Position numbers and translations under genes: made by a program. Shown here one piece after another: positions 1,309-14,530 of a stretch of 46,579 nucleotides of DNA. The notes under the pieces were generated by a model. It did no database searches. It worked only from the letters and a program-made list of their open reading frames with translations, and was not told the DNA's origin. The stretch is from Xenococcaceae cyanobacterium MO_234.B1 (GTDB lineage Bacteria > Cyanobacteriota > Cyanobacteriia > Cyanobacteriales > Xenococcaceae). Location: the NCBI GenBank assembly GCA_030064915.1, contig JASJEK010000002.1, positions 1 to 46,579 of the forward strand. The letters run 5' to 3'. How positions within the stretch are numbered: the first letter of the stretch is position 1; each line of letters starts with the position of its first letter.

Positions 1309-1828
1309 GGGATAAAGATCGATAAGTATCTCCCCCTGCTTGTCTCAACCCCATCAATTTAAAGTTGACAGACCACTAGGGCGGGTAGTTCTTACAAACT
1401 GATGCATGTGAGACTCTGGTCAATTAATCATCTTCATGGATGTTCCCGTACCGACTGGCATTTTCCCTAAGATTTTCAACTCGGTTAAAGCTAGTCACAG
1501 ACTTATATGCAGATTTTCGGACAAGTCTAATGGTTAAGAAGGGGCAATAGAGCCAAAGAATCAGTGCATAAAAATCTGGGGATTCCCCAATAAGTTAGTA
1601 GAACATAGCAGTTCTTAAACTTATGGAGTACAGATTTTCCCCCTTTAATCTTCAGGAAGAGACTTAATATATCCAGATATTGATACCATAAATTGATTAG
1701 TTTTATTTTCAAGTCTTCTTCGGTGCCCTTTCCCCAGACATAGCCAAGGTAAACAAACCTCACGCTTTCGGAGAATTGCTATATCTTAATTAGACTTGTG
1801 ATGCCCGTGGCATTACTAGGAGCAGTAG
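1309..1828. other. Gene-free spacer before the CHAT/DUF1822 cluster
   Basis: No supported gene. It carries one copy of a short dispersed repeat (1337-1378). A 78-codon frame on the minus strand (1527-1763) has no recognisable product and no good ribosome-binding site and was not called. Just before the next gene are a small palindrome (ATGCC-CGT-GGCAT, 1801-1813) and a good Shine-Dalgarno AGGAG about 6 nt from the ATG at 1829, so the promoter and 5' leader of the CHAT cluster should lie in this spacer. Confidence 0.5.
1337..1378. repeat. Short dispersed repeat, copy A
   Basis: The segment containing TGCTTGTCTCAA and then ATCAATTTAAAGTTGACA recurs in the same orientation at 45744-45783. It differs by a few substitutions and one indel between the two blocks. 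Both copies lie in gene-free DNA beside transposon debris. Confidence 0.65.
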
Positions 1829-3607
1829 ATGAGTGATAAATTTTACACATTTTACGATTTTACCAACAACAATGGTTATCCGCCATTTAAACCTCTAGTG
1901 CAATATCAATTAAAAAAGAGAATAGAAAGGCTGGCTAAGTTACATCCAGAATGGAAGGAGCCGGATTATGTCCAATATTTTGGCGAAATTTTGCTAAATA
2001 AGCCAGAATCGGATTTGGAAAGCCCTTTTGCTCATTGGCATTTCTTGGCTTATCTCGATTTAGACCGCTGTTATTTAATTTGGAGAAATTTTCATCATTT
2101 TCCTTTTTATGCAGCTAAGTCAGAAGACTTTTATGCTCTGACCAATGAAATTTTATGCCAACCACAGAAATTAAAAATATATCTGGCTAAGTATAATCCT
2201 CAAAATGAGAAGAAAGCTTCAGTTAAAACTTACATTCTCAGCATACTGAAAAACTCAATTAGAGAAAACATAGATTTACAATCAGATTGGCATTTGTTGT
2301 GTAATGTAGATGTAAATAGTCTCAGAAAGTTAAATAATTTCGGACAAAAATTGCGAAAAGCTTTAGTAAAATATGGCTTAAGAGAACCCAAAATTTCTCA
2401 GTATATTTTTGCTTGGCAATATTTTGTACCAGTTTATAAAAACAATAGAGTTTATAATTTTGCTCAGAGAAAAAATCAAAGATGGCCAGAACCTGGAAAC
2501 TCGGATTTTGCGGAAGCTGCCAATTATTATAATACCCAAAGATTTCAGCCTGATGCTCCTCTACAAGTATCTTCTGGAAAAGAGCTAACATCAGAAATGC
2601 TCAAAAAATGGATGAATATTTGTATTGAAGCTCTACGACAAGCTGAAGAAATAATTGAAATTTCTCGTGATGCAGATATTTATGAAAGACAAGAAGAACA
2701 GATTGATAATTGGATAGTTTTAGATTTAGATTGTCAAGACGAAGAGTCAGATTCTTTAGAGCAAGTTGAAATAATATTAAGGCAAGAAATAAAGAAAATT
2801 GAAACAAATTTTGACAGAATTAAGAGTAGAATTCCTCAACAATTACGTCGGGCAATTATGCCATTGTGCTATGCTAATCGACTAGCTATTTTAAATCAAG
2901 AACAGTTGGCTAGTTTATTAGGAGTACACCAAGGAACTATTTCCCGTTATATCTCTAAATATATTGAAGTTCCTTTATTGAATAGATTGAGAGATTTACT
3001 TATTAAAAAATTCGATTTTGAACTTTATCTAGATACATTTTTATCAGACAGATTTGCTAATCCTCATAAGGAAAGTCTTCTGGATGGGTTATTACTTGAA
3101 TCTCTTAAAGAGTTGGACAATAAAAAACAATATATTCTGAAATTACGCTATGGTCAGAAAATGACTTTAAAAAAAATCAAGCTAAAAATAAATTCCGAAA
3201 AAAATATTAATGAGGATGACATTAGTGAAATCAAAAACGAGTTAAGAAGATTATTTCAAGAAAAATTCAATAAATGGCAAACTGCATATATTAAATTTTG
3301 GCTAATAAATCATAATAAAAATCTTATTCAAGGGGTTTTGTTAAATGGGTTTAAGCAATTAACTATTCTCAATCAAGAAATTCTTAAGAAGCGATATTGT
3401 CAAAAAATAGATGAAAAAGAAATTATGAATCTTTATCCTAAATGTAGTGTCAGTCAAATTATATATGAAGCAAAGCAGCAATTACAGGAACATCTACTTC
3501 AGTGGATTAAGAATCATTTGGGTATTGATTTAATTTCAAATAATTTACAAGTTAGATCGGTTATTGATGATTGGTTATTAACCGCTTTAATTTATTTAGA
3601 AATATAA
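1829..3607 (+). CDS. Large sigma-70-family-like protein of the CHAT/DUF1822 cluster
   Basis: A 592-residue protein of a cyanobacterial type usually annotated as sigma-70-family RNA polymerase sigma factor. The opening segment is rich in aromatic and basic residues (YDFTNNNGYPPFKPLVQYQ). Around residues 345-395 lies a clear helix-turn-helix (LNQEQLASLLGVHQGTISRY). Two later segments (about 435-470 and 510-560) each look like degenerate sigma region 4 units, with ILKLRYGQKM and ILKKRYCQKI preceding further helices. Start: ATG with AGGAG 6 nt upstream. The next gene begins 27 bp downstream, so it is probably the first gene of an operon with DUF1822, CHAT-CHASE2 and DUF928. Its size is far above a usual ECF sigma factor. 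It may be a sigma-like regulator rather than a true promoter-recognition subunit; core polymerase binding is not shown by the sequence. Confidence 0.72.
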   Translation: MSDKFYTFYDFTNNNGYPPFKPLVQYQLKKRIERLAKLHPEWKEPDYVQYFGEILLNKPESDLESPFAHWHFLAYLDLDRCYLIWRNFHHFPFYAAKSEDFYALTNEILCQPQKLKIYLAKYNPQNEKKASVKTYILSILKNSIRENIDLQSDWHLLCNVDVNSLRKLNNFGQKLRKALVKYGLREPKISQYIFAWQYFVPVYKNNRVYNFAQRKNQRWPEPGNSDFAEAANYYNTQRFQPDAPLQVSSGKELTSEMLKKWMNICIEALRQAEEIIEISRDADIYERQEEQIDNWIVLDLDCQDEESDSLEQVEIILRQEIKKIETNFDRIKSRIPQQLRRAIMPLCYANRLAILNQEQLASLLGVHQGTISRYISKYIEVPLLNRLRDLLIKKFDFELYLDTFLSDRFANPHKESLLDGLLLESLKELDNKKQYILKLRYGQKMTLKKIKLKINSEKNINEDDISEIKNELRRLFQEKFNKWQTAYIKFWLINHNKNLIQGVLLNGFKQLTILNQEILKKRYCQKIDEKEIMNLYPKCSVSQIIYEAKQQLQEHLLQWIKNHLGIDLISNNLQVRSVIDDWLLTALIYLEI

Positions 3608-3634
3608 GTCTAGTTAAAGAGGAAAACATAAAAT

Positions 3635-5107
3635 ATGTTGAGTTTACGTAAACTATCAATTAGTTATCCTAACCAATTATGGTTGAAAATAACCGAGAAA
3701 ATACAACAGAAATCTTGGCTGCGATCGCAATGGTATTCTAATCCTACTAGTCGATGTCAAGCTTACCTAAACGATCTCTGTTGGCAAACTTTCATCCCCT
3801 GGTTAGAAGCTTGGTTAGAAGAAGATAGTAACGAGTCTAATTTAATTGACAAGAAATATCTAGCCAATATTTGGGAATTTGTTAACGGTAGTATTATCAA
3901 CTTAGGTCAAACTAAAATAGTATTAATTCCCAGTGAGACGACTGATATCGAAGAATTTGACATACCTCAAGAGTGGGTTGATATTCCTCAATGGCAAGCA
4001 GATTATTATTTAGCCATTCAAGTAAATTTAGACTTTCCTGACGAAGCTTGGATGCGAGTAATAGGATACGTTAGTTATCAACAATTGAAAGATAAAGGAG
4101 TATATTATAAGAGCGATCGCTCTTACTATATCAGTCAGGAATATTTAGAGGAAGATATCACAGAGATATTATTATCTTACCAACAAGTTGCTCAAACCAA
4201 ACAGGAATTAGTAACTCAAACGGGATTATCTTTAGCAACAGCTAATCAGTTGTTAGATAGATTAGGTAATCCATCAGTGTATTACCCTCGTCTAGCAATT
4301 CCTTTCCCACAATGGGCGATGTTGGTGACTAATCCTCAATGGAGGCAAAAATTATTTGAAAAACGAACTGAATCAGCTAAAGTTTCACTGTTTAGTTCCC
4401 AAGCAGTAAATTTGAGACAATGGTTACAGAAGGTAGTTAGTACAATAGAAGAAGAGGTATTTAGTACAATAGAAGAAGGTTGGCAAACAGTAGAAACTCT
4501 TTTTACTCCCCTTGAACCAATTCCTGTACGCGGATATCAAAATACAGAAGAAACTATTACCAAAGAAGCAATTACTCCCCTAATTCAGCTTCTACAACCC
4601 AATAACCTTGAAAAAGAACGCACTCAAGCTGCTGGAGTACTGGGAAAAATTGGTGGGGGACACCCGGAAGTTATCAAAGCTTTAACGGAATTATTGCATA
4701 CCGCTAAAGAGGAAGAAACTCGTTGGGAAGCTGCTTTAAGCCTAGGAAAGATCGATCCAGGCAATCCTCATGGAGGCGTAAAAAAGGGCAAGCTAATTGA
4801 CTTAGGCATACAACTGGAAGGTCAAAAAATTGTTTTGATTGTAGCTATCATGCCTCAAACTCAGGATAGAGTGGGAGTCTGGATACAATTAAAACCTGCT
4901 AATGAGTTAATTAAGCTGCCTCCTCATCTCAAACTCAGCATAATCTCTCAGGGAAAAACCTATTTAGAAGCAGAAGCTAGAAGCGATAATGAAGGTAAGG
5001 GTAAAGATAAGTGCATTCAACTGCGCTTTACTCCTCCATCAGGAACAAATTTTCAAGTACAGGTAACTCTTGATAATGCCAGCTTTACCGAAAATTTTGA
5101 TGCCTAA
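3635..5107 (+). CDS. DUF1822-family protein with a HEAT-like segment
   Basis: A 490-residue protein with no signal peptide or membrane segment, so probably cytosolic. Residues about 1-270 match the cyanobacterial DUF1822 family as I know it: tryptophan-rich segments such as QADYYLAIQVNLDFPDEAWMR followed at a distance by RLAIPFPQW. Around residues 305-375 there are two helical repeats resembling HEAT/PBS-lyase units (AAGVLGKIGGGHPEVIKALTELL and EAALSLGKIDP). The last roughly 110 residues are beta-rich with a CIQLRF strand and may form a small sandwich domain. It lies between the sigma-like gene (27-bp gap) and the CHAT-CHASE2 gene (25-bp gap). The function of the family is not established. 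From position it could be a partner or substrate of the CHAT protease, or an inhibitor of the sigma-like protein; both are inference. Confidence 0.75.
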   Translation: MLSLRKLSISYPNQLWLKITEKIQQKSWLRSQWYSNPTSRCQAYLNDLCWQTFIPWLEAWLEEDSNESNLIDKKYLANIWEFVNGSIINLGQTKIVLIPSETTDIEEFDIPQEWVDIPQWQADYYLAIQVNLDFPDEAWMRVIGYVSYQQLKDKGVYYKSDRSYYISQEYLEEDITEILLSYQQVAQTKQELVTQTGLSLATANQLLDRLGNPSVYYPRLAIPFPQWAMLVTNPQWRQKLFEKRTESAKVSLFSSQAVNLRQWLQKVVSTIEEEVFSTIEEGWQTVETLFTPLEPIPVRGYQNTEETITKEAITPLIQLLQPNNLEKERTQAAGVLGKIGGGHPEVIKALTELLHTAKEEETRWEAALSLGKIDPGNPHGGVKKGKLIDLGIQLEGQKIVLIVAIMPQTQDRVGVWIQLKPANELIKLPPHLKLSIISQGKTYLEAEARSDNEGKGKDKCIQLRFTPPSGTNFQVQVTLDNASFTENFDA

Positions 5108-5132
5108 TTTTTAATTTTTAAATTATATAGCT

Positions 5133-7535
5133 ATGGGCAGAGTAGCAATTCTCAAAATCGGACATGGAAACTTTCAGCAAGGATTTGAAGTGTCTTTAGA
5201 AATCAAAGAAGATCGAGGTCAATCCTTGGTAGAAATTGAAGGAAAACTACCTGCAAATACAGATATTGAAAATTTATATCAATCTTGGCAACAATCTTTT
5301 TATCGGGTGACGGGAATATATCGAAAAATATATAGAAATGGTGAAAGCTGGGATATTGATGAAAGTATAGCTACGAATATTGCTAACAGCGATTTAGTGA
5401 CAGATTGCTGGCAAAAAGTTCAACGTTTAGAAGCCAATATGCAATCATGGCTACAACCGTCAGCAGATATTAATTGGCAAAAGATCCGCGAAAGGTTAGC
5501 CCAAGAATTAGCTCGTAATTCTCAAGAAATAAGATTAATAATTAAAGCCAGAAAAGAAGAACTATGGAAACTACCTTGGCACCTATGGGATTTATTATCA
5601 GATTATCCCGATGTAGGTATTGGTTACAGTACGAATGAACACTATACACTTCCTTTAATAGAAACAACTCATAATAAAGTTCGCATTCTCGCTGTTTTTG
5701 GAGATAGTAAAAATATCGATTTAACAGAAGATTTACAAGCAATTAATGATTTAAAAAATACCGAACCAGTTTTTTTACACCAGCCTAATTCCAGAGAACT
5801 AATTCAAAAGTTACGAGACAATGAAGGTTGGGATATATTCTTTTTTGCTGGTCATAGCCAGTCAGAAACCAATGCCGGTCGAATTTATCTTAGTGAAAGA
5901 GAAAGTTTAACGAACGATCAGTTTAAAAACGCTCTAACAGAAGCAATTAGTAAAGGCTTAAAAATAGCAATTTTTAACTCTTGTGACGGTTTAAAACTAG
6001 CCCAAAGACTAGCTGATTTGCATATTCCAGTAGTTATTGTCATGCAGGAAATAGTACCAGATCTAGTTGCTCAATCCTTTTTAAAAGAATTTTTAACCGA
6101 ATATAACTCAGGACAGCCTTTATATACTGCTGTTCGTAAGGCACAAGCTAGACTGGAAGAATTTACTGATTACCCTGGTGCAACTTGGTTGCCGTTGATT
6201 TTCCAAAATCCTACTGTAATACCACCCAAATGGAATGACTTTTTGAGTGTAACTTCAGACCAGCTAACACCTCAATCTAGCAAAGTAGTTCCTTTCCAGC
6301 AATCAAAACCTCAATGGTATCGACTTGTTCAAGTAGTTCTCAATAGTTTAGCGATCGCCACTTTAATAATCGGAGTGCGTTGCTTGGGCATACTCCAACC
6401 ATTAGAATTATACGCCTATGATCGCCTGATGCAATTATGCCCTGGGGAAGGAAAGCCAGACCCTCGCATTTTGGTAGTTACCATCGATAACTCTGATATT
6501 AAATATCAAGAACAAGAAGGAATGAAGCATAAAAGTTCCTTAGAATCTTTATCAGATCGAGCTCTTAACAAATTATTAGATGAACTAGAAAAGCTCAATC
6601 CTACTACTATTGGCTTAGATATTTATCGACCAGCCGGTTTTGCTCCTGCTTTATCTAGCCGTCTGCAAGAAGACGAGGGTTTTTTTGTTATCTGTAAGGC
6701 TCATTCTGTTGAAAATAATCAAGACTTTTATGGTACTCCTCCACCTCAAGAAAAAGAAATACCAAAACAACGATGGGGTTTTAGTGACGTTCTTCTGGAT
6801 CAAGATAAAGTAGTCCGTCGCCATCTTTTAAGTATGATTTCTGAATCGACAGACCCCTGTGATACTGAGTATTCCCTAAGCTCATTACTCGCCTTGCATT
6901 ATTTATCTCAGAAACAAGATATGACAGCTAAACTTACCTCTAAAGGAGAATGGCAGCTTAAAAATCTAATTCTTAAGAGATTAAATAATCATAGCAGCGG
7001 ATATCAAAAACTAGATGACCGTGGTTATCAAATACTTCTTAATTACCGTTCCTACTCCTCTCCTAAAACCGTTGCCAATAGTATTTCATTACAAAAAGTA
7101 CTAGAGGAGGGAATTCCTTCTACCCTGGTAAAGAGAGTGCAACAACCAATCATCCTTATCGGTACTATTGCCAGAGGGGAAAAGTATGATGATTTCTTTG
7201 ATACACCTTACGGAGAAGAAATTCCAGGGGTTTTTCTCCAAGCACAAATGGTAAGTCAAATTATTAGTGCAGTTTTAGATGAACGTCCCCTACTGTGGTG
7301 GTGGAGCAATTGGGTTGAAGTGCTTTGGATTTGGGGAGCATCAATGGTAGGAGGGATATTAGTTATTTTTACTACTCATGGATCGTGTCTAGTTCTCAAT
7401 GTAACTGGCAGTTTAATAGGAATATTAGCTATCTGCTTGGTTCTCTTTACTCACGGAGGATGGATACCTCTAATACCTCCAGCATTAGCTTTAGTAATCA
7501 CTACCATAATAACTTATAAAATAATTCGTAATTAA
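5133..7535 (+). CDS. CHAT protease - CHASE2 sensor membrane protein
   Basis: An 800-residue fusion. The N-terminal half holds a CHAT (caspase-fold) peptidase domain at about 110-365. The two expected catalytic residues are visible: His241 in FFFAGHSQ and Cys284 in IFNSCDGL, 43 residues apart, with a late ATWLPLIFQNP strand as in other CHAT proteins. A membrane helix follows at about 398-417, then a CHASE2 domain (about 420-690; YDRLMQLCPG, ILVVTIDNSDI, TIGLDIYRP, IILIGTIARGEKYDDFFDTPYG). Three membrane helices (about 725-800) end the protein. The likely topology is a cytosolic protease and an extracytoplasmic CHASE2 ligand sensor, with the chain ending at the membrane and no histidine kinase or cyclase output. 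The protease is therefore probably the output domain. The intact dyad argues for activity; substrate and ligand are unknown. Confidence 0.88.
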   Translation: MGRVAILKIGHGNFQQGFEVSLEIKEDRGQSLVEIEGKLPANTDIENLYQSWQQSFYRVTGIYRKIYRNGESWDIDESIATNIANSDLVTDCWQKVQRLEANMQSWLQPSADINWQKIRERLAQELARNSQEIRLIIKARKEELWKLPWHLWDLLSDYPDVGIGYSTNEHYTLPLIETTHNKVRILAVFGDSKNIDLTEDLQAINDLKNTEPVFLHQPNSRELIQKLRDNEGWDIFFFAGHSQSETNAGRIYLSERESLTNDQFKNALTEAISKGLKIAIFNSCDGLKLAQRLADLHIPVVIVMQEIVPDLVAQSFLKEFLTEYNSGQPLYTAVRKAQARLEEFTDYPGATWLPLIFQNPTVIPPKWNDFLSVTSDQLTPQSSKVVPFQQSKPQWYRLVQVVLNSLAIATLIIGVRCLGILQPLELYAYDRLMQLCPGEGKPDPRILVVTIDNSDIKYQEQEGMKHKSSLESLSDRALNKLLDELEKLNPTTIGLDIYRPAGFAPALSSRLQEDEGFFVICKAHSVENNQDFYGTPPPQEKEIPKQRWGFSDVLLDQDKVVRRHLLSMISESTDPCDTEYSLSSLLALHYLSQKQDMTAKLTSKGEWQLKNLILKRLNNHSSGYQKLDDRGYQILLNYRSYSSPKTVANSISLQKVLEEGIPSTLVKRVQQPIILIGTIARGEKYDDFFDTPYGEEIPGVFLQAQMVSQIISAVLDERPLLWWWSNWVEVLWIWGASMVGGILVIFTTHGSCLVLNVTGSLIGILAICLVLFTHGGWIPLIPPALALVITTIITYKIIRN

Positions 7536-7599
7536 TCTATAAACTTCTTTATTAGCAATTTTCAATTACTATTTTTTGTTTAGAGAAAGAAAAATAAAA

Positions 7600-8427
7600 A
7601 TGTTTTTACTTAACTCATCTCGACAGAGGATAATGATCGGTTTAACTATTACTTTTAGTTTAAGTATGATAAGTCTGCTCGCTAATACTTCAGGAATAAA
7701 AGCACAATCTCGACAATCAAGTAACAATATTTCTCAAACTAGAAAAGTATCTTTCAATCCACCTCCTGTAACAGATAACGGAGCCCCTGGAGGTCGCAGA
7801 AAAGGGGCAGGAAGCCATAGCTTATGTGAAGTTGCAAACCAAGAAAAAGAGATTACTCCTCTGATTGCTTTAATGCCTAAAATATCTATAGAAACTGAAA
7901 CAAAAAGTAAAACTTATGTATGGGGCAAAACAGCTTTTGACCATCCTACTTTTTGGTTTTATGTTGCCTATCCAGCTAATACTTATGTTGAATTTATTCT
8001 TCAGGATGAAGCGGAAAATGAAATTTATCAAACTACTTTTATCTTAGATAAAATACCTGGTATCGTCAGCTTAACTCTTCCTAAAGATAAGATTACTTTA
8101 GAAACTGGGAAGAGTTATCATTGGTATTTCAATATTATGTGCAATCGAGAGGATACAACTGATGATTTTGTAGAAGGATGGGTAGAAAGAGTAGAATTGA
8201 ATCCAGTTATTAACAATCAGCTAGAGTCAGTTCAACCCTTAGAACGGGTATCTATTTATGCAGAAAATGGGCTTTGGTACGATACTTTAACTAATCTCGA
8301 TCGCCTACGACAAACAGAGTCAGAAAATAAAGCGATCGCTGCTATTTGGACTGATTTATTGCAACAAGTTGGTTTAGAGGAAATTAGTCAAGAGCCTGTT
8401 GTGAAGCGTTACAATTTGGAAAATTAA
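7600..8427 (+). CDS. DUF928-family secreted protein
   Basis: A 275-residue protein from the ATG at 7600. An upstream TTG at 7576 would add eight residues, but the ATG has AGAGAAAG about 10 nt upstream and puts the signal peptide at the start. The peptide is MFLLNSSRQ followed by a hydrophobic core and a probable cleavage site after GIKAQ. The mature part shows the DUF928 pattern: GAPGGRRKGAGS, LIALMP, then TFWFYVAYPANTYVEF, a beta-sandwich-like middle (SYHWYFNIMC) and an alpha-helical tail with WYDTLTNLDRLR. In cyanobacteria this family is often found near CHAT/CHASE2 proteins. It lies 64 bp after the CHAT-CHASE2 gene on the same strand. It may be a periplasmic partner of CHASE2, but that is inference. 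Confidence 0.82.
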   Translation: MFLLNSSRQRIMIGLTITFSLSMISLLANTSGIKAQSRQSSNNISQTRKVSFNPPPVTDNGAPGGRRKGAGSHSLCEVANQEKEITPLIALMPKISIETETKSKTYVWGKTAFDHPTFWFYVAYPANTYVEFILQDEAENEIYQTTFILDKIPGIVSLTLPKDKITLETGKSYHWYFNIMCNREDTTDDFVEGWVERVELNPVINNQLESVQPLERVSIYAENGLWYDTLTNLDRLRQTESENKAIAAIWTDLLQQVGLEEISQEPVVKRYNLEN

Positions 8428-8441
8428 TTAGTTTTATCTCT

Positions 8442-8570
8442 CTACTTTTTCTGAATCATTTTTTTTCTTTGAAGACGTTCTCGACGTTGACTACGAAGAT
8501 CCGCTTCAACCATGGCATTTGAGATGGCTGCTATATAATTCAGGGAGTTGAAGCATTCTGTTTTCAACAA
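8442..8570 (-). pseudogene. C-terminal coding scrap of unknown origin
   Basis: The minus strand carries an open frame of 42 codons ending at a TAG (8442-8444). It contains SLNYIAAISNAMVEADLRSQ and a basic tail rich in Arg and Lys. It opens directly after a TAA with only TTG codons available as starts, so it looks like the end of a longer gene whose front has been lost. The composition suggests a transposase tail, but I do not recognise the family. It may be chance coding. Confidence 0.3.
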
Positions 8571-8587
8571 TTAGACTTTATTGATAA

Positions 8588-8612
8588 TAGTCTCTCATCT
8601 TTTGGGAGACTA
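8588..8612. other. Hairpin between the two convergent ends of the cluster
   Basis: TAGTCTC at 8588-8594 pairs with GAGACTA at 8606-8612 across an 11-nt loop. It lies between the end of the DUF928 gene and the end of the short sigma-like gene, which converge on this region. It could be a weak terminator for either gene; no strong T-run follows. Confidence 0.3.
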
Positions 8613-8757
8613 CTTCCTTCAATCCCCGATAACATCTGCTTTTTGACCTTGGCTGTAACCCCTCCAGCGGACTGGCTAACTCTCGCTCGAATATAAGGTA
8701 GATATTCTGAGAACTATTCCTGTTAGAGAGTGTTTGTAAACTAATATAAAGCCAGCG

Positions 8758-8782
8758 TGTCTCGCTTTAAGTCGGTAGCCCT
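8758..8782. repeat. 25-bp dispersed repeat, copy A
   Basis: TGTCTCGCTTTAAGT followed by CGGTAGCCCT matches 36063-36087 at 23 of 25 positions in the same orientation. It ends 5 bp before the stop codon of the short sigma-like gene. The core TGTCTC...TTTAA(A)GTTG also resembles the 1337/45744 repeat pair. Confidence 0.55.
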
Positions 8783-8787
8783 TTTCT

Positions 8788-9423
8788 TTATATATAGCCT
8801 TGAGATTTACTAAATTCTCGCAATAATGGCTTGCATTTACGCTGATAAAAACTACTTAGGGTTCCCGCTGCTACGCCGTATTCTTCTGCTAACTTTTCCC
8901 AGGCTGTTTCAGGAGGCAATCGTCTTAGAATTAAGACTTGAGAAGTAACTTGAGGATGATTCTCTAAATAAATTCTACGTAACTTATTTTGAGGATCTTC
9001 CCCAGCCCACTTCTCGATCTCTTCTAGTAATGGAGGAATATCCGCTTTGGCAGGTAAATTATCTATTGGATCGATAATTTGATTATTGCGATCAACTTGG
9101 ACAGATACAGTTTGCTGCTTCTTTTTTTTGATTCTAATATAAGCATCTTTGAGTCGCCACTTTAGATAATTGTTAAGCCAAGTCACAACGCTAGCTTTGT
9201 CAGAATCGTAAACTTTACCAGGTTTTCCTTCGCAGATATTCCGACAAAAATAAATCCAAGTTTCTTGCAATGCATCCTCATAATAGGGAGTATTTTCTTG
9301 CCACAATTGACTATTTACTAATCTAATAATTTTCGTCAAATTTTTCTGGCGTTCTTTGCTCCCAGGAGGATATTTACAAGCTTCTTTTACAAGCTGTGAT
9401 AGAGATTGTGATAATTTTTCCAT
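8788..9423 (-). CDS. Short sigma-70-like factor (ECF-type)
   Basis: A 211-residue protein. Residues about 35-105 look like sigma region 2: YYEDALQETWIYFCRN, then WLNNYLKWRLKDAYIRIKKK. Residues about 155-205 look like region 4, with a helix-turn-helix: PPETAWEKLAEEYGVAAGTL followed by FYQRKCKPLLREF. The linker includes NQIIDPIDNLPA, common in cyanobacterial sigma-like proteins of this size. It is encoded opposite to the CHAT/DUF1822 operon and converges with it, with about 360 bp between stop codons. No anti-sigma gene with a membrane domain is adjacent. If the cluster is one system, this is the best candidate for its transcriptional output, but its own promoter and targets cannot be read from the sequence. 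Confidence 0.72.
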   Translation of the reverse strand: MEKLSQSLSQLVKEACKYPPGSKERQKNLTKIIRLVNSQLWQENTPYYEDALQETWIYFCRNICEGKPGKVYDSDKASVVTWLNNYLKWRLKDAYIRIKKKKQQTVSVQVDRNNQIIDPIDNLPAKADIPPLLEEIEKWAGEDPQNKLRRIYLENHPQVTSQVLILRRLPPETAWEKLAEEYGVAAGTLSSFYQRKCKPLLREFSKSQGYI

Positions 9424-9874
9424 CTGTCATTCAAGTTGTTTGTCGATTGACGAAGTTGAAGCAGAGTTCACCTTCTCAAGGCGGAGTACCTTCGACTATG
9501 AGTTTTTGGCTCTTGAGTAATTTATTTATTTCAGCTCCTTTTTGGCTCTATTGTTGGTTTTATTAAAATTTCAGTCCTATAGCTGGCTATTACGCAATTT
9601 GTTACAAAAATAAATATCTGGTAGTGTTGCAGACAGGAGCATGGCTAGTTTCTTCTCAATACTGTTTGCTTAGCGATCGCCAGCAGGGTTTATCTCATAA
9701 ATTTATAAGGGTTTGAGAGTTCTTTTGGGAATCGGTTTGATATTAACGTAACAGTCTTGAGTTTCTTCTCACTCGACTTGACAAGTAGACATTTTGCTTA
9801 ACTTGTCACCCATCCCCTCAAGGTCGGCTTTCAGTCATTAGCAGGGGTTAGCCTACTTCCCATCCCAACAATGA
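9424..9874. other. Spacer between the short sigma-like gene and the sulfatase
   Basis: No gene seen. It must contain the promoter of the minus-strand sigma-like gene near 9424-9550. One inverted repeat is clear: TGACAAGT at 9779-9786 and ACTTGTCA at 9801-9808 (8-bp arms, 14-nt loop), lying downstream of the sulfatase stop codon. A HIP1 site is at about 9673. Confidence 0.45.
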
Positions 9875-11677
9875 TCAGGGATCAAAACGGGTGACTGCCC
9901 AGCCGTCTTTGTTCTTCGGGAGGAATTCCCCCTCATCCCTTCCTACTTCTACGGCGATGATGTCGGTCAACTTCTGATTCATCGCGAGCAATAGTTCTCC
10001 GTTAGCTTTTGGATCCACTGCCAGATTATTCATCTCGTCCGGATCGGCTTCAAGGTCGAACAACTCGACGTCGTTGTACTCAAATAACTCCTCGAGCGTC
10101 TTGGGCAGATTATGTTGCAGCGGCGAGAAGTAACGACTGAAACGATACTGCCCATCGGTTACACTGCGAATCGCACCTCGTTTTTTCAGGTCAGGCTTCA
10201 AACCGAGTTTCGAGACATCCTTCCCGCTGGATATGGCTTCATAAACCTTCTCCATGTATTCGGCATCCTGGTACAACCACATATTGAAGTTGTACAGAGC
10301 AGCGTTCCGTACGGCGTTGGTAGGCGCGGACGCGGGCGACGCTAACAGGCTACTCAGATCCTGTCCTTTCATAGCTGCCGCCTGCTGGTTCACGCGATCA
10401 TGGGTGACGCCAGCCATCCCGAGAATTGTTGGGGTGATATCCAGATGGGATGTCAGCGCCGAGCAGTCTTGACCAGCACTGGCGGAGTACCCCGGATGTC
10501 GGATCCACAGTGGCACGTGGAGCTGCTCCTTATATGCGGTTGCGCCTTTTCCATACATGGAGTGAGCGCCCGCCAGTTCGCCATGATCTGATGTCAAGAT
10601 GACAATAGTATTCTCCATGAGACCTAGGTCGTCGAGTTCCCGCAAAATTCTTTCCACGTGACGATCACAGTCGGCAAGACAGTTCAAATAGTAGTCCTGC
10701 AGGCGCTGCCAGCGCCCATCTTCGTTCGGAAATTGCCCGACCAGCGTGCGGCGAGCGAACTGGAATTCATAGTGCGCTCGCGGGCGGCCCCTTTTGTCCC
10801 AAGCTTCATTGCGGCTCGTGGGCAACGGCATTTTCCAACGTCGCTGATACAAGGTGTGCGCAGGCTCGCGATTGATGTTCATCAAGTGACCAGTATCCTG
10901 AACTGGCTCACTACCGAGGGGGTCGGTGTTGAAAAACATTACATCGTGTGGATTCACAAAGTTGAGCGCGAGAAACCAAGGTTTGCCCTGCTTCTGGAGC
11001 TGTGGCAACCTTGACCGCAGCCAACGTACAGCCGTTGAGGTCGTGAACTCGTCGGTTCTATATCCGCCCATGGTCATGCCGATTATGTCGCCCACGCCGA
11101 CATAATCGGCGAAGCCGTATTGCTGCACGATCTTGTTCAGCTTGTTGAGATTGACGTCGGGAGCCGCCTGGAACTCGGTATCTTCCAGTTCGTCGATCAG
11201 GTGGCATTTGCCGAGATACGCCGCGTGATACCCTGCATCCTGCAGATATTTACCTACCGTCGGAATGTCGGGAGACAGTTCCCTTGACCACGGAAAACCT
11301 AAATTGTCGAACACCCCAGTATGCTGGATGTGCTGGCCCGTATAAATTACCGAGCGTGAGGAGCTACAGACCGAAGTCGCAATCTGATGATTCGTAAAAG
11401 AAATCCCTTCCCGTTGCAAACGCTGGCGTCCCGGCAATGAGTAATCCCCTGGCAGAGTCATCGGATCGAAGTAGCGCTCCTGGTCGGTAAGGATGAACAG
11501 TATGTTGTAAGGCCCACTTCCTAACGCCTCGGCTCCTTTGGCAACACCTTGGGCATCTGTCGCCATCTTAGGCATCCCCGCGAGTGCGCCTGTGCCTAAT
11601 GCCAGGGTGGAGAATCCTGCGGCCTTAAAAAATTCGCGGCGTGACAGGCCTCCCCTGTCTTCATCTCTACAAGTCAT
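9875..11677 (-). CDS. Tat-exported sulfatase-family hydrolase
   Basis: A 600-residue alkaline-phosphatase-superfamily protein. The N-terminus has a twin-arginine signal (SRREFFKAAG) followed by a small hydrophobic stretch, so export in folded form is expected. The sulfatase fold is shown by ILFILTDQERYF, a nucleophile region CSSSR at Cys104, LGKCHL, and TSDHGELAGAHSMYGKG. Cys104 sits where the formylglycine cysteine would be, but the third motif position is Ser instead of the usual Pro or Ala. Whether it is converted to formylglycine is therefore uncertain. The metal-site segment reads TDQ rather than the common TDD. The coding DNA is visibly richer in G+C than its neighbours and I saw no HIP1 octamer in it, which suggests transfer. 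The substrate is unknown; sulfate esters or possibly phosphodiesters are possible. Confidence 0.85.
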   Translation of the reverse strand: MTCRDEDRGGLSRREFFKAAGFSTLALGTGALAGMPKMATDAQGVAKGAEALGSGPYNILFILTDQERYFDPMTLPGDYSLPGRQRLQREGISFTNHQIATSVCSSSRSVIYTGQHIQHTGVFDNLGFPWSRELSPDIPTVGKYLQDAGYHAAYLGKCHLIDELEDTEFQAAPDVNLNKLNKIVQQYGFADYVGVGDIIGMTMGGYRTDEFTTSTAVRWLRSRLPQLQKQGKPWFLALNFVNPHDVMFFNTDPLGSEPVQDTGHLMNINREPAHTLYQRRWKMPLPTSRNEAWDKRGRPRAHYEFQFARRTLVGQFPNEDGRWQRLQDYYLNCLADCDRHVERILRELDDLGLMENTIVILTSDHGELAGAHSMYGKGATAYKEQLHVPLWIRHPGYSASAGQDCSALTSHLDITPTILGMAGVTHDRVNQQAAAMKGQDLSSLLASPASAPTNAVRNAALYNFNMWLYQDAEYMEKVYEAISSGKDVSKLGLKPDLKKRGAIRSVTDGQYRFSRYFSPLQHNLPKTLEELFEYNDVELFDLEADPDEMNNLAVDPKANGELLLAMNQKLTDIIAVEVGRDEGEFLPKNKDGWAVTRFDP

Positions 11678-11944
11678 TTAACCTCATTCAGAACAATATC
11701 AAAAAAGAAAAGATATTCTCTAATTAAATCTTAAATGATCGATATGAGTCATATTTCTTAAGATTAACTTCCCAACTACCAACTTAAGACGGCTTTGTGG
11801 CAGGGGGACATGGGAAGAACAACATTTTTGTAGAAGCCCAGGGGCCAATTCTAAGTTTTTCTGGATTTCAGGCAATTACCGTAGTGTGGTTGGCTGCGCT
11901 GTGGCAACCATTAAGCAGGAGATGGAAACCTTTAGGGGAGAGTG

Positions 11945-13609
11945 TTAAAGAATATAGACGATTAGGGTTGCAGCAATGACTTTAACAATATAGGTGATGG
12001 CATAAGTCCCGGCGTAACCTATTCCAGGAATGGAGCTTTTAGCGTCCTGTACTAGCATTAGCATGGCAGGGGTGTTACTACCACATCCGGCAACAGCACC
12101 AAGTAATAGTGCTTTATTCATTTTTAATAAGCGATCGCCTACTAAATAACCTATTGCTAGGGGCAAAGTCCCGATCGCGATCGCGGAAAGAATCAGGAGC
12201 GGTCCGAAACTGGTAAGTGCTTCCACTACACTCGGCCCTCCCTCGATCCCTACATCCGCCAAGAAAAGTAGTATGCCTAGCTGCTTGAAAACCCAGATTG
12301 CAGCAGGGGGAACTAGCCCGAAGCTGTGCTTGATAGAACGCATATAGCCTACACCCAGACCTACCAGCAGCACGCCACTAGACGTGCCGAGACCAATGCT
12401 GATATCGCCGAGCTGAATCTGGATCAGACCGAGAAGAAAGCCAGCCGAAATTCCTAAGGCAAAGGTAAGCAAGTCGGTAGCATTGATGTCCCGCTCTGCG
12501 TAGCCGATTCTATCGATGAGCTGGTTTAGGTGTACCTCAGTTCCAGTTATTTTTAACAGGTCGCCCCGCATGAGTCTTAGTTCGGGGTCGATCTTCAAGT
12601 TGACACCAGAGCGAGTGTATTGTCCTAACTGACAACCGTAGGCATAGCGCTCCAGTTCCCGTAAAGACTTACCAAAGATATCAGGATTGGTGACAATTAC
12701 CTCGCAAGTCAGCACTTCCTCTCCTAGCAAATCGCGATCGACCACCTCCGGGCCGATCATCTCGCTGAGGTGAGCCTGAGCGAGTCTGTGACCGCCCACA
12801 GATATCAGGTCATCTTTCTCCAGCGTAGTTTCTGGCTCGAAATCCACCAGTATCCCAGTACGTTTAATCTTGTCAATTTGGCAATGAGTGACGGTCTGGA
12901 ACTCTTGCACGGACTTGCCTACTGCATCATCGCTGACTACGCGGTAGGCACGAAGGCTTTGTGCCCAAGGACCCTCTTCGCTGCTGTCATCTGACAGGTT
13001 CATCGCCGACTCAGCCTCTTTGGCACTGGCGGAAAGATGGAACTTGAGGAGTCGGGGTGCCTGCGGCAGTAGTTGCATAGCTATTAAGTAACTCACCAGA
13101 AAGGTTATAGCGTAGGTCACGTTAATAAACTGAACTGCCTGCTCAACCGACAGACCTTCTGGCATCGGGATTTTACCAGTCTCAACTACATCTATAGCTG
13201 CACTGATTCCTGGAGGGTTAACTCCAGCTCCAGTGAATAAACCAGCACCAACTCCCAGGTTGAAGTCGAAAATACTGCTGAAACCCACAGCCAGAGCCAG
13301 CCCAGTCACTACAATAACCACAGTTAAGGTAGCAAACTTGCCTAACTGGGGCAGTGCCACTGCAAAAAATCCTGGCCCAGCTTCATAGGCTACGGCAAAC
13401 AGGAAGACCAAGAAGCCAAAAGCACCTAGCAGAGGCGGTAACTCGAAGCCAAAGTAACCAAAGACTGTTCCCATCAACAGTATTCCAGCCTGGGTTCCAA
13501 GTACGACTGGACCTAGCTTAATTTTGCCCACCCAAAAGCTGAGAGCGAGCAATATAAATGCTAAAAGATGAGGGTTGTTCTTGACGATATCTACTATTTG
13601 GAGTGCCAT
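11945..13609 (-). CDS. AspT-type antiporter (aspartate:alanine exchanger family), copy 1
   Basis: A 554-residue transporter with two membrane halves (about 1-190 and 385-554) separated by a cytosolic part with two RCK_C/TrkA-C-like domains. The first domain is around AYRVVSDDAVGKSVQEF to LISVGG; the second around CEVIVTNPDIFGKSLREL to LLKITG. The halves contain family signatures such as TGAGVNPPGISAA and GAVAGCGSNTPAMLM, and the C-terminal half has DAKSSIPGIGYAGTYAITY. The family exchanges amino acids or dicarboxylates; the substrate here is not readable. It is a paralogue of the 18370-20043 gene. It follows no co-transcribed decarboxylase; the sulfatase lies 267 bp downstream on the same strand. 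The region 11678-11944 holds no gene I can support. Confidence 0.85.
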   Translation of the reverse strand: MALQIVDIVKNNPHLLAFILLALSFWVGKIKLGPVVLGTQAGILLMGTVFGYFGFELPPLLGAFGFLVFLFAVAYEAGPGFFAVALPQLGKFATLTVVIVVTGLALAVGFSSIFDFNLGVGAGLFTGAGVNPPGISAAIDVVETGKIPMPEGLSVEQAVQFINVTYAITFLVSYLIAMQLLPQAPRLLKFHLSASAKEAESAMNLSDDSSEEGPWAQSLRAYRVVSDDAVGKSVQEFQTVTHCQIDKIKRTGILVDFEPETTLEKDDLISVGGHRLAQAHLSEMIGPEVVDRDLLGEEVLTCEVIVTNPDIFGKSLRELERYAYGCQLGQYTRSGVNLKIDPELRLMRGDLLKITGTEVHLNQLIDRIGYAERDINATDLLTFALGISAGFLLGLIQIQLGDISIGLGTSSGVLLVGLGVGYMRSIKHSFGLVPPAAIWVFKQLGILLFLADVGIEGGPSVVEALTSFGPLLILSAIAIGTLPLAIGYLVGDRLLKMNKALLLGAVAGCGSNTPAMLMLVQDAKSSIPGIGYAGTYAITYIVKVIAATLIVYIL

Positions 13610-13729
13610 ACTCTATATCTAGTACTTAATTGAATTATAGTTTAGATATCAAATCTTTACATAACAAGGGATTGAGCCGTTGTATTATGATGTCAAAATA
13701 CCTCTCAATCAATGAACCTCTTTCCCTTC

Positions 13730-13773
13730 CGCTCCTCACTGCGTGGTCTCGGCGGAAGCCGAGGTGGGGAGCG
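13730..13773. repeat. GC-rich nested palindrome
   Basis: Outer arms CGCTCC (13730-13735) and GGAGCG (13768-13773) enclose inner arms CTCGG (13748-13752) and CCGAG (13759-13763). It lies in the spacer between the DUF2808 gene and antiporter 1 and adjoins a HIP1 site. It resembles the dispersed GC-rich palindromes of cyanobacteria. Confidence 0.55.
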
Positions 13774-13798
13774 ATCGCTACTTAAAATTCTTGCTAGC

Positions 13799-14530
13799 CT
13801 AGCCCCTGCCACCAGGTTGTGAAAGGTGAATACGACCAATACCTAAGTACAAACCCTGGCTCTGAGCTCCCACAGGAAAGGCTGTCACCCCAAACTGATA
13901 GATCCCACCATACCTAGGATTGCGCACTCTCAGAGAAATTGTCACAGTGAGGCCCGGTTCTACAGGCTGCTCAAATACAACTTTCAGCCCATTCTTTTCA
14001 GAAGTTTCTCTGTTGACCGAAGCCAGAGGAATTGAGTCGTCCGAATCAAAACTATCGCCGAAGAAGGCACGGGTCTGACTAGGAAAAAAAACAATCTGCT
14101 CTAAATTAGTCTGTTGTATGATAGTAACAGCTTTGAGAGGCTTGCCAGCATCTGAGGGGACTTCAATTGTGAAATAGTAGTTGGCTCGAATCCATGGACT
14201 CCTAAAGCTAGTAGCAGAACGAATCAAGCGTGGCGATCGCTCAAAGAAAGTCTTTTCATTGCCGTCCTCGAAGGCACTGGCAAGCAAGCTGAATAGGGTA
14301 CTGCTCCTAAATCCGGGTTGAATACCATCTTTGACCGAAGACACTTTGACCAAAGACAGACGGGATACGGGTCGACTTTGGAGACGGGGAGATAAATTGC
14401 CCAGGGAAAAAGGAAGTTTGAGGGGCGGATTTGGTATTAATAGCGAAATACCTAAGATTAAAGCTCCAGCATCCAGCAAGTAGGTATGGGCTGAACCCAA
14501 CTTAGTATAGGTTTTAGAAATGTTTTTCAT
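13799..14530 (-). CDS. DUF2808-family secreted protein
   Basis: The ATG at 14530 gives 243 residues. A longer frame to 14620 would translate a dispersed palindromic repeat and is less likely. After a short basic start (MKNISKTYTK) there is a hydrophobic stretch (DAGALILGISLLI) that fits a signal peptide or anchor. The body has the DUF2808 pattern: SPWIRANYYFTIEVP, then AVTIIQQTNLEQIVF, PVEPGLTVTISLRV and PRYGGIYQFGVTAFP. The family is common in cyanobacteria and predicted to be periplasmic or surface-located; its function is unknown. It shares the strand with antiporter 1 but is separated from it by 189 bp containing a palindromic repeat, so co-transcription is uncertain. Confidence 0.8.
   Translation of the reverse strand: MKNISKTYTKLGSAHTYLLDAGALILGISLLIPNPPLKLPFSLGNLSPRLQSRPVSRLSLVKVSSVKDGIQPGFRSSTLFSLLASAFEDGNEKTFFERSPRLIRSATSFRSPWIRANYYFTIEVPSDAGKPLKAVTIIQQTNLEQIVFFPSQTRAFFGDSFDSDDSIPLASVNRETSEKNGLKVVFEQPVEPGLTVTISLRVRNPRYGGIYQFGVTAFPVGAQSQGLYLGIGRIHLSQPGGRG

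Follow-up and report, generated by a model that had tools for sequence, protein, structure and literature searches.

The 46,579-nucleotide stretch of contig JASJEK010000002.1 from Xenococcaceae cyanobacterium MO_234.B1 (hereafter the window) carries, at positions 1829–8427, a four-gene operon encoding a long sigma-70-family protein (SIGL), a DUF1822 protein, a CHAT-CHASE2 receptor-protease and a DUF928 protein, an arrangement that is kept in related genomes. It represents a module that is widespread in cyanobacteria and was predicted from genomes in 2021. We propose that its membrane sensor activates the CHAT protease, which cuts DUF1822 and so frees the sigma factor of the same operon, a mechanism in which our confidence is roughly even. 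New here are the removal of a neighbouring short sigma-like gene (SIGS) from the unit, the linkage counts, an association of DUF928 with CHASE2 and a conserved arginine in the DUF1822 linker as a candidate cut site.

The four-gene operon and its conservation

The initial annotation of this DNA had grouped five genes into one block, the fifth being SIGS, which converges on the other four. All five open reading frames (ORFs) lie where it had placed them, and the intergenic gaps of 27, 25 and 64 base pairs (bp) are correct when DUF928 is taken to start at ATG 7600; its longest ORF begins at TTG 7576. As a unit, however, the block stands only for the four-gene operon, while SIGS is assigned to another copy of the module. 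The operon has the following features.

1585–1606, forward strand: segment of a conserved block 5' of SIGL, kept in the relatives of the SIGL operon; candidate promoter or site of autoregulation
1829–3607, forward strand: SIGL, long sigma-70-family protein of 592 amino acids, first gene of the operon (Pfam Sigma70_r4, 1.4e-5)
3635–5107, forward strand: DUF1822 protein of 490 amino acids, soluble (PF08852, 6e-83)
4529–4531, forward strand: codon of DUF1822 Arg299, candidate cleavage site P-V-R/G-Y (codon checked)
5133–7535, forward strand: CHAT-CHASE2 receptor-protease of 800 amino acids (PF12770, 1.3e-10; PF05226, 5.3e-56)
5133–5531, forward strand: constant N-terminal domain of the receptor-protease, residues 1–133, conserved across all sensor variants
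5532–6155, forward strand: CHAT domain, residues 134–341, with the His241 codon at 5853–5855 and the Cys284 codon at 5982–5984
6357–7358, forward strand: CHASE2 sensor, residues 409–742, preceded by one membrane segment and followed by three
7600–8427, forward strand: DUF928 protein with a hydrophobic, signal-like N-terminus (PF06051, 2.3e-60)

How general is this arrangement? DUF1822 was detected in 102 of the 146 genomes of a phylum-wide sample, and the source genome has five DUF1822 genes. The loci compared here were picked for DUF1822 (80 from the phylum sample, those of the source genome itself and one from another genome), so that the neighbourhood counts describe the surroundings of DUF1822 and not all sigma or CHAT genes. 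A sigma gene stands directly 5' of 72 of the 87 DUF1822 genes (41 of the SIGL type and 31 of the SIGS type), and a CHAT gene directly 3' of 53 of them; an orthologue of SIGL itself immediately precedes DUF1822 at loci L226–L228. Conserved linkage and order, which had been suggested as a check for all five families, is thus strongly evident for the sigma–DUF1822–CHAT series but not for SIGS as a fifth member.

Both sigma-like proteins are indeed relatives of sigma-70, as the initial annotation had supposed, when they are judged by family profiles. Neither protein of the window alone reaches the cut-off of TIGR02937 (SIGL scores 5.6e-7, under the cut-off). The SIGL family profile matches solved sigma factors in regions 2 and 4, 1l0o being the best (1.8e-14), and with the SIGS family profile RpoE is matched (2.9e-4). 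SIGL residues 355–379 and 426–450 are helix-turn-helix-like, and the second of these segments fits sigma region 4 best. The DUF1822 protein has no hydrophobic segment by hydropathy and bears a HEAT insert at residues 314–374 (HEAT_2, 9e-8).

The surveyed genomes also hold variants of these genes. Pairs of SIGL and DUF1822 (about 390 and 385 amino acids) without an adjacent EACC2-type CHAT gene occur in many genomes (L069–L076 and similar). Stand-alone SIGL-like genes of about 590–600 amino acids, 46–56% identical to the SIGL of the window and with no DUF1822 alongside, were seen at L229–L233; at L229 and L232 the gene sits at a contig end. The DUF1822 module is also found on the cyanobacterial plasmids NC_019774.1, NZ_CP016476.1, NZ_CP040276.1 and NC_019765.1, the first three of which have CHASE2, DUF928 and a CHAT gene nearby. 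In the genomes of family f24, a distant phylum group, there are weak matches to the N-terminus of DUF1822 (about 40 bits, usually one per genome) in proteins of roughly 500–1300 amino acids.

SIGS belongs to a second copy of the module

The position of SIGS in the window is tied to a feature of the assembly, and two rows have to be added to the list above.

8788–9423, reverse strand: SIGS, short sigma-like gene of a second module, paired with contig C134
8788–8914, reverse strand: 127-bp stretch identical to the start of C134, marking a fork at 8787/8788

The first 127 bp of contig C134 of the same assembly (locus L023) are identical to the 3' end of SIGS, the two sequences part at the next base, and C134 then goes on with DUF1822 followed by CHAT-CHASE2; SIGS is otherwise single-copy in the source genome. 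In four near-relative genomes, relatives of SIGS (75–81% identical) lie directly 5' of their own DUF1822, and CHAT-CHASE2 then follows in the three of these whose contigs extend far enough. No SIGS converges after DUF928 in the SIGL-operon relatives that possess DUF928 (L227, L228, L235, L237, L238 and L239). Judged from these sequences, SIGS opens another copy of the module, which is split over two contigs.

Because of the exact overlap with C134 and the position of SIGS before its own DUF1822 in relatives, we read the 8787/8788 join as either an assembly fork or a true rearrangement carried by some of the population, and likely as a fork; the window may therefore be a chimeric or rearranged contig at this point. 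An exact overlap at a contig end would be the trace of a fork left by a de Bruijn-graph assembler, for which we infer k=127. Short repeats common to other contigs adjoin the join (8725–8780), and no further 127-bp overlaps were found at the window ends. A genuine five-gene module, in which two sigma genes cooperate and the convergent position of SIGS is peculiar to this lineage, could point to the existence of the join in the assembled contig. We give that reading almost no credence, since the overlap leads precisely to a contig carrying the usual partner genes of SIGS, and since relatives place SIGS in front of its own DUF1822 and not past the DUF928 of the SIGL operon. On the same three lines of evidence we reject the five-gene co-occurrence of the initial annotation, and its suggestion that either of two sigma-like proteins might be released falls with the C134 overlap and the gene order in relatives. 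With SIGS outside the unit, each module has a single sigma factor and no second one to choose from.

A conserved protease core with exchangeable sensors

The dyad His241/Cys284 of the CHAT domain is present in the protein of the window, as the initial annotation had noted, and checking of the codons confirms it. It is invariant in the family (His241 in 56 of 56 and Cys284 in 55 of 55 aligned sequences), and the acidic residue E306 is conserved in 51 of 56. Because hydropathy yields one membrane segment at residues 402–420 and three within 728–798, the CHAT domain is predicted to be cytosolic and CHASE2 to lie outside. CHAT is present in all 51 of the 51 partners, whose C-terminal sensors comprise 33 CHASE2, 10 Peripla_BP_6, 2 nSTAND1 and 2 TPR; in one partner the C-terminal part consists of pentapeptide repeats. 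The earlier proposal that the protease is the output of the receptor would fit a core that stays constant, its dyad invariant, while the sensors are exchanged.

The constant N-terminal domain retains W52 and W106 in at least 90% of sequences and is of alpha+beta type in the model. Residues 1–133 probably correspond to what Kaur et al. 2021 call EACC2, a match made by description only. A model of residues 1–375 reached a predicted local distance difference test (pLDDT) of 69.6 and a predicted template modelling score (pTM) of 0.70; its best PDB matches are separase and then SAVED-CHAT, at TM-scores of just 0.38–0.50 on the query. Searches of solved structures with the CHAT-CHASE2 and DUF1822 sequences returned nothing meaningful. 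HetF, too, belongs to the CHAT family and is a membrane protein of cyanobacteria, but an identity with it was rejected: the profile match is partial (residues 205–291, 2.7e-6) and its 26 bits fall far below the HetF cut-off of 1200.

DUF928 accompanies CHASE2-type receptors at 24 of 36 loci, as against 1 of 17 loci with other sensors (p=2.6e-5). For this reason it probably belongs to the CHASE2 branch, as an accessory acting outside the inner membrane, presumably in the periplasm.

TPR-CHAT proteins of about 870–990 amino acids were seen near the DUF1822 loci L103, L138, L093 and L077, and several TPR-CHAT genes converge on DUF928 or precede DUF1822. At L078 and L079 there are two proteins of similar size with hydrophobic N-termini, known by size and not by domains. 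A trypsin-TPR protein that follows sigma–DUF1822 at L121 was considered as a replacement of CHAT and dropped as probably exported; its relatives at L118 and L122 have signal-like N-termini.

The linker arginine of DUF1822

Arg299 of DUF1822 lies in a linker, variable in both length and sequence, that joins the N-terminal region to a beta-rich C-terminal domain. In an alignment of 86 DUF1822 sequences its column holds arginine in 77 and lysine in 5, and the next best column of the linker reaches 66% identity. It is mostly preceded by F, A or M and followed by S or G; shuffled linkers, used as a control, yield the motif far less often. Separase requires arginine at P1 and cleaves after it (PMC4626109), and we therefore regard an arginine-specific cut at Arg299 as a reasonable hypothesis for the CHAT protease. 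The initial annotation had named DUF1822 as the best candidate for a substrate of CHAT, and the R or K kept in the linker lends that suggestion support at the level of sequence.

Relation to known systems

The initial annotation had made the module seem newer than it is: the neighbourhood and the coupling of protease to sigma factor are already contained in Kaur et al. 2021 (PMC8195603). The main text of that work describes proteins in which EACC2 is joined to a caspase and to C-termini that vary, CHASE2 among them, and whose genes mostly lie beside those of an extracytoplasmic function (ECF) sigma factor and DUF1822; it proposes sensor-triggered activation of the protease with a transcriptional output. 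Our operon resembles that system in its CHAT domain, which scores over the cut-off and has an intact dyad, in the variable sensors of its family and in the neighbouring sigma and DUF1822 genes. The text of Kaur et al. differs in calling DUF1822 a TPR protein and in proposing autoproteolysis; DUF928 goes unmentioned there, and the main text names no substrate or cut site.

Two known systems offer analogies for the proposed step of sigma release. In the type III-E CRISPR system of Csx29, Csx30 and CASP sigma, cleavage has been shown experimentally to relieve the inhibition of the sigma factor (PMC10028731). It shares with the operon a CHAT protease, a sigma factor and an inhibitor of the latter, a role for which DUF1822 is our candidate; Csx29, however, is activated by Cas7-11 with target RNA, whereas the CHAT domain of the operon is fused to a membrane sensor. 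In the CalpL–CalpT–CalpS system an ECF sigma factor is released when a protease fused to a sensor cuts an anti-sigma factor (PMC11417357), but that protease is soluble and of the Lon type, its SAVED sensor responds to cA4, and the inhibitor differs from DUF1822. Control by proteolysis has also been predicted for ECF54, which has CHAT proteins in its genetic context (PMC8999054); the likeness lies in this predicted control and context, the listed model being an actinobacterial protein (Geodermatophilus).

In the open-licence literature on DUF1822 and DUF928 we found no experiment on the module, and work outside that literature is possible. PADLOC reported nothing for the five proteins except a weak mad1 match, and a search of viral contigs with DUF1822 gave no match.

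A possible mechanism and its alternatives

How might the products of the operon act together? CHASE2 would sense a signal outside the inner membrane, perhaps aided by the exported DUF928, and sensing would activate the cytosolic CHAT domain on the same polypeptide. CHAT would then cut DUF1822, most likely after Arg299 of the linker; the cut would end the hold of DUF1822 on the sigma factor from the same operon, and the freed sigma factor would direct transcription. The protease, sensor and sigma components of this scheme are assigned from sequence. That DUF1822 may be an anti-sigma factor cut by CHAT is suggested by analogy with the Csx29 and CalpL systems, and we likewise infer the activity of CHAT, the cleavage at Arg299 and the role of DUF928. 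More tentatively, and with some doubt, we extend the scheme to a separase/CHAT-type class of transmembrane receptor-proteases with swappable sensors, a single arginine-specific cut in DUF1822 and several circuits per cell, each with its matched sigma factor.

If the scheme is true, cyanobacteria run many parallel circuits of receptor, protease and sigma factor, DUF1822, a phylum-wide family, is a brake on sigma factors, and a caspase-fold protease links membrane sensing to gene control outside CRISPR. Given the linker arginine and the invariant dyad of Cys and His, what was predicted from genomes can be put to a simple test of cleavage.

Several observations weigh against the release of sigma by cleavage of DUF1822. 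The linker motif is no rarer in DUF1822 genes without an adjacent CHAT gene (29 of 33) than in those with one (41 of 53), and it is invariant in a set of sequences that mostly lacks an adjacent CHAT; the residue may therefore have a structural role or act for a protease encoded elsewhere. Four loci lose the R/K in the alignment. No solved anti-sigma factor matches DUF1822 in sequence, its profile gave no meaningful match in the PDB and none in NCBIfam, and a structure predicted from a two-row alignment (pLDDT 40) was not used. Distances among sigma, DUF1822 and CHAT core correlate (Mantel r 0.68–0.83), which counts for the scheme, but plain co-inheritance would give the same and the correlation does not show mechanism. 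Nor did a regulon emerge from the blocks conserved in relatives upstream of SIGL (1585–1606, forward strand) and of SIGS (9588–9608, reverse strand), each of which has one exact match in the source genome: the SIGL block has no other match there at up to 3 mismatches, and the SIGS block has two further weak matches, apparently inside genes.

One alternative, unlikely in our estimation, is that the signal mainly makes CHAT cleave itself or process the sigma factor directly, and that DUF1822 is an uncut scaffold or adaptor. Kaur et al. 2021 proposed, in the main text, autopeptidase activation for such proteins (PMC8195603), and ECF54, with its CHAT neighbours, has been proposed to be under proteolytic control without an anti-sigma factor (PMC8999054); the HEAT repeats of the DUF1822 protein are moreover common in scaffolds. 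Yet the sole strongly conserved basic linker residue that we found, in a survey of DUF1822 linkers, is that of DUF1822, and sigma–DUF1822 pairs without a neighbouring CHAT fit a sigma factor and its brake better than a scaffold. Those same pairs, which are common for SIGL, could equally suit a co-activator or specificity partner of sigma. In that case the linker arginine would be structural, docking the C-terminal domain, and CHAT would regulate something else, a combination that we hold to be quite improbable. A structural role is possible because the residue is equally kept without an adjacent CHAT gene, but the high variability of the linker in length and sequence is typical of an exposed site and not of a packed one, and a different target for CHAT sits poorly with its place directly after DUF1822 in 53 of 87 cases. 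Cleavage of DUF1822 by CHAT is the reading that we retain.

Flanking sequence

The ORFs around the operon were read over the first 14 kb of the window. One for an IS1-type transposase (469–1308; PF03400, 2.4e-8) lies just before the operon. The G+C content at 10001–14000 is 0.49–0.52, compared with 0.31–0.38 across the operon region, and the ORFs of that segment include a sulfatase-like protein at 9875–11677, judged by eye.

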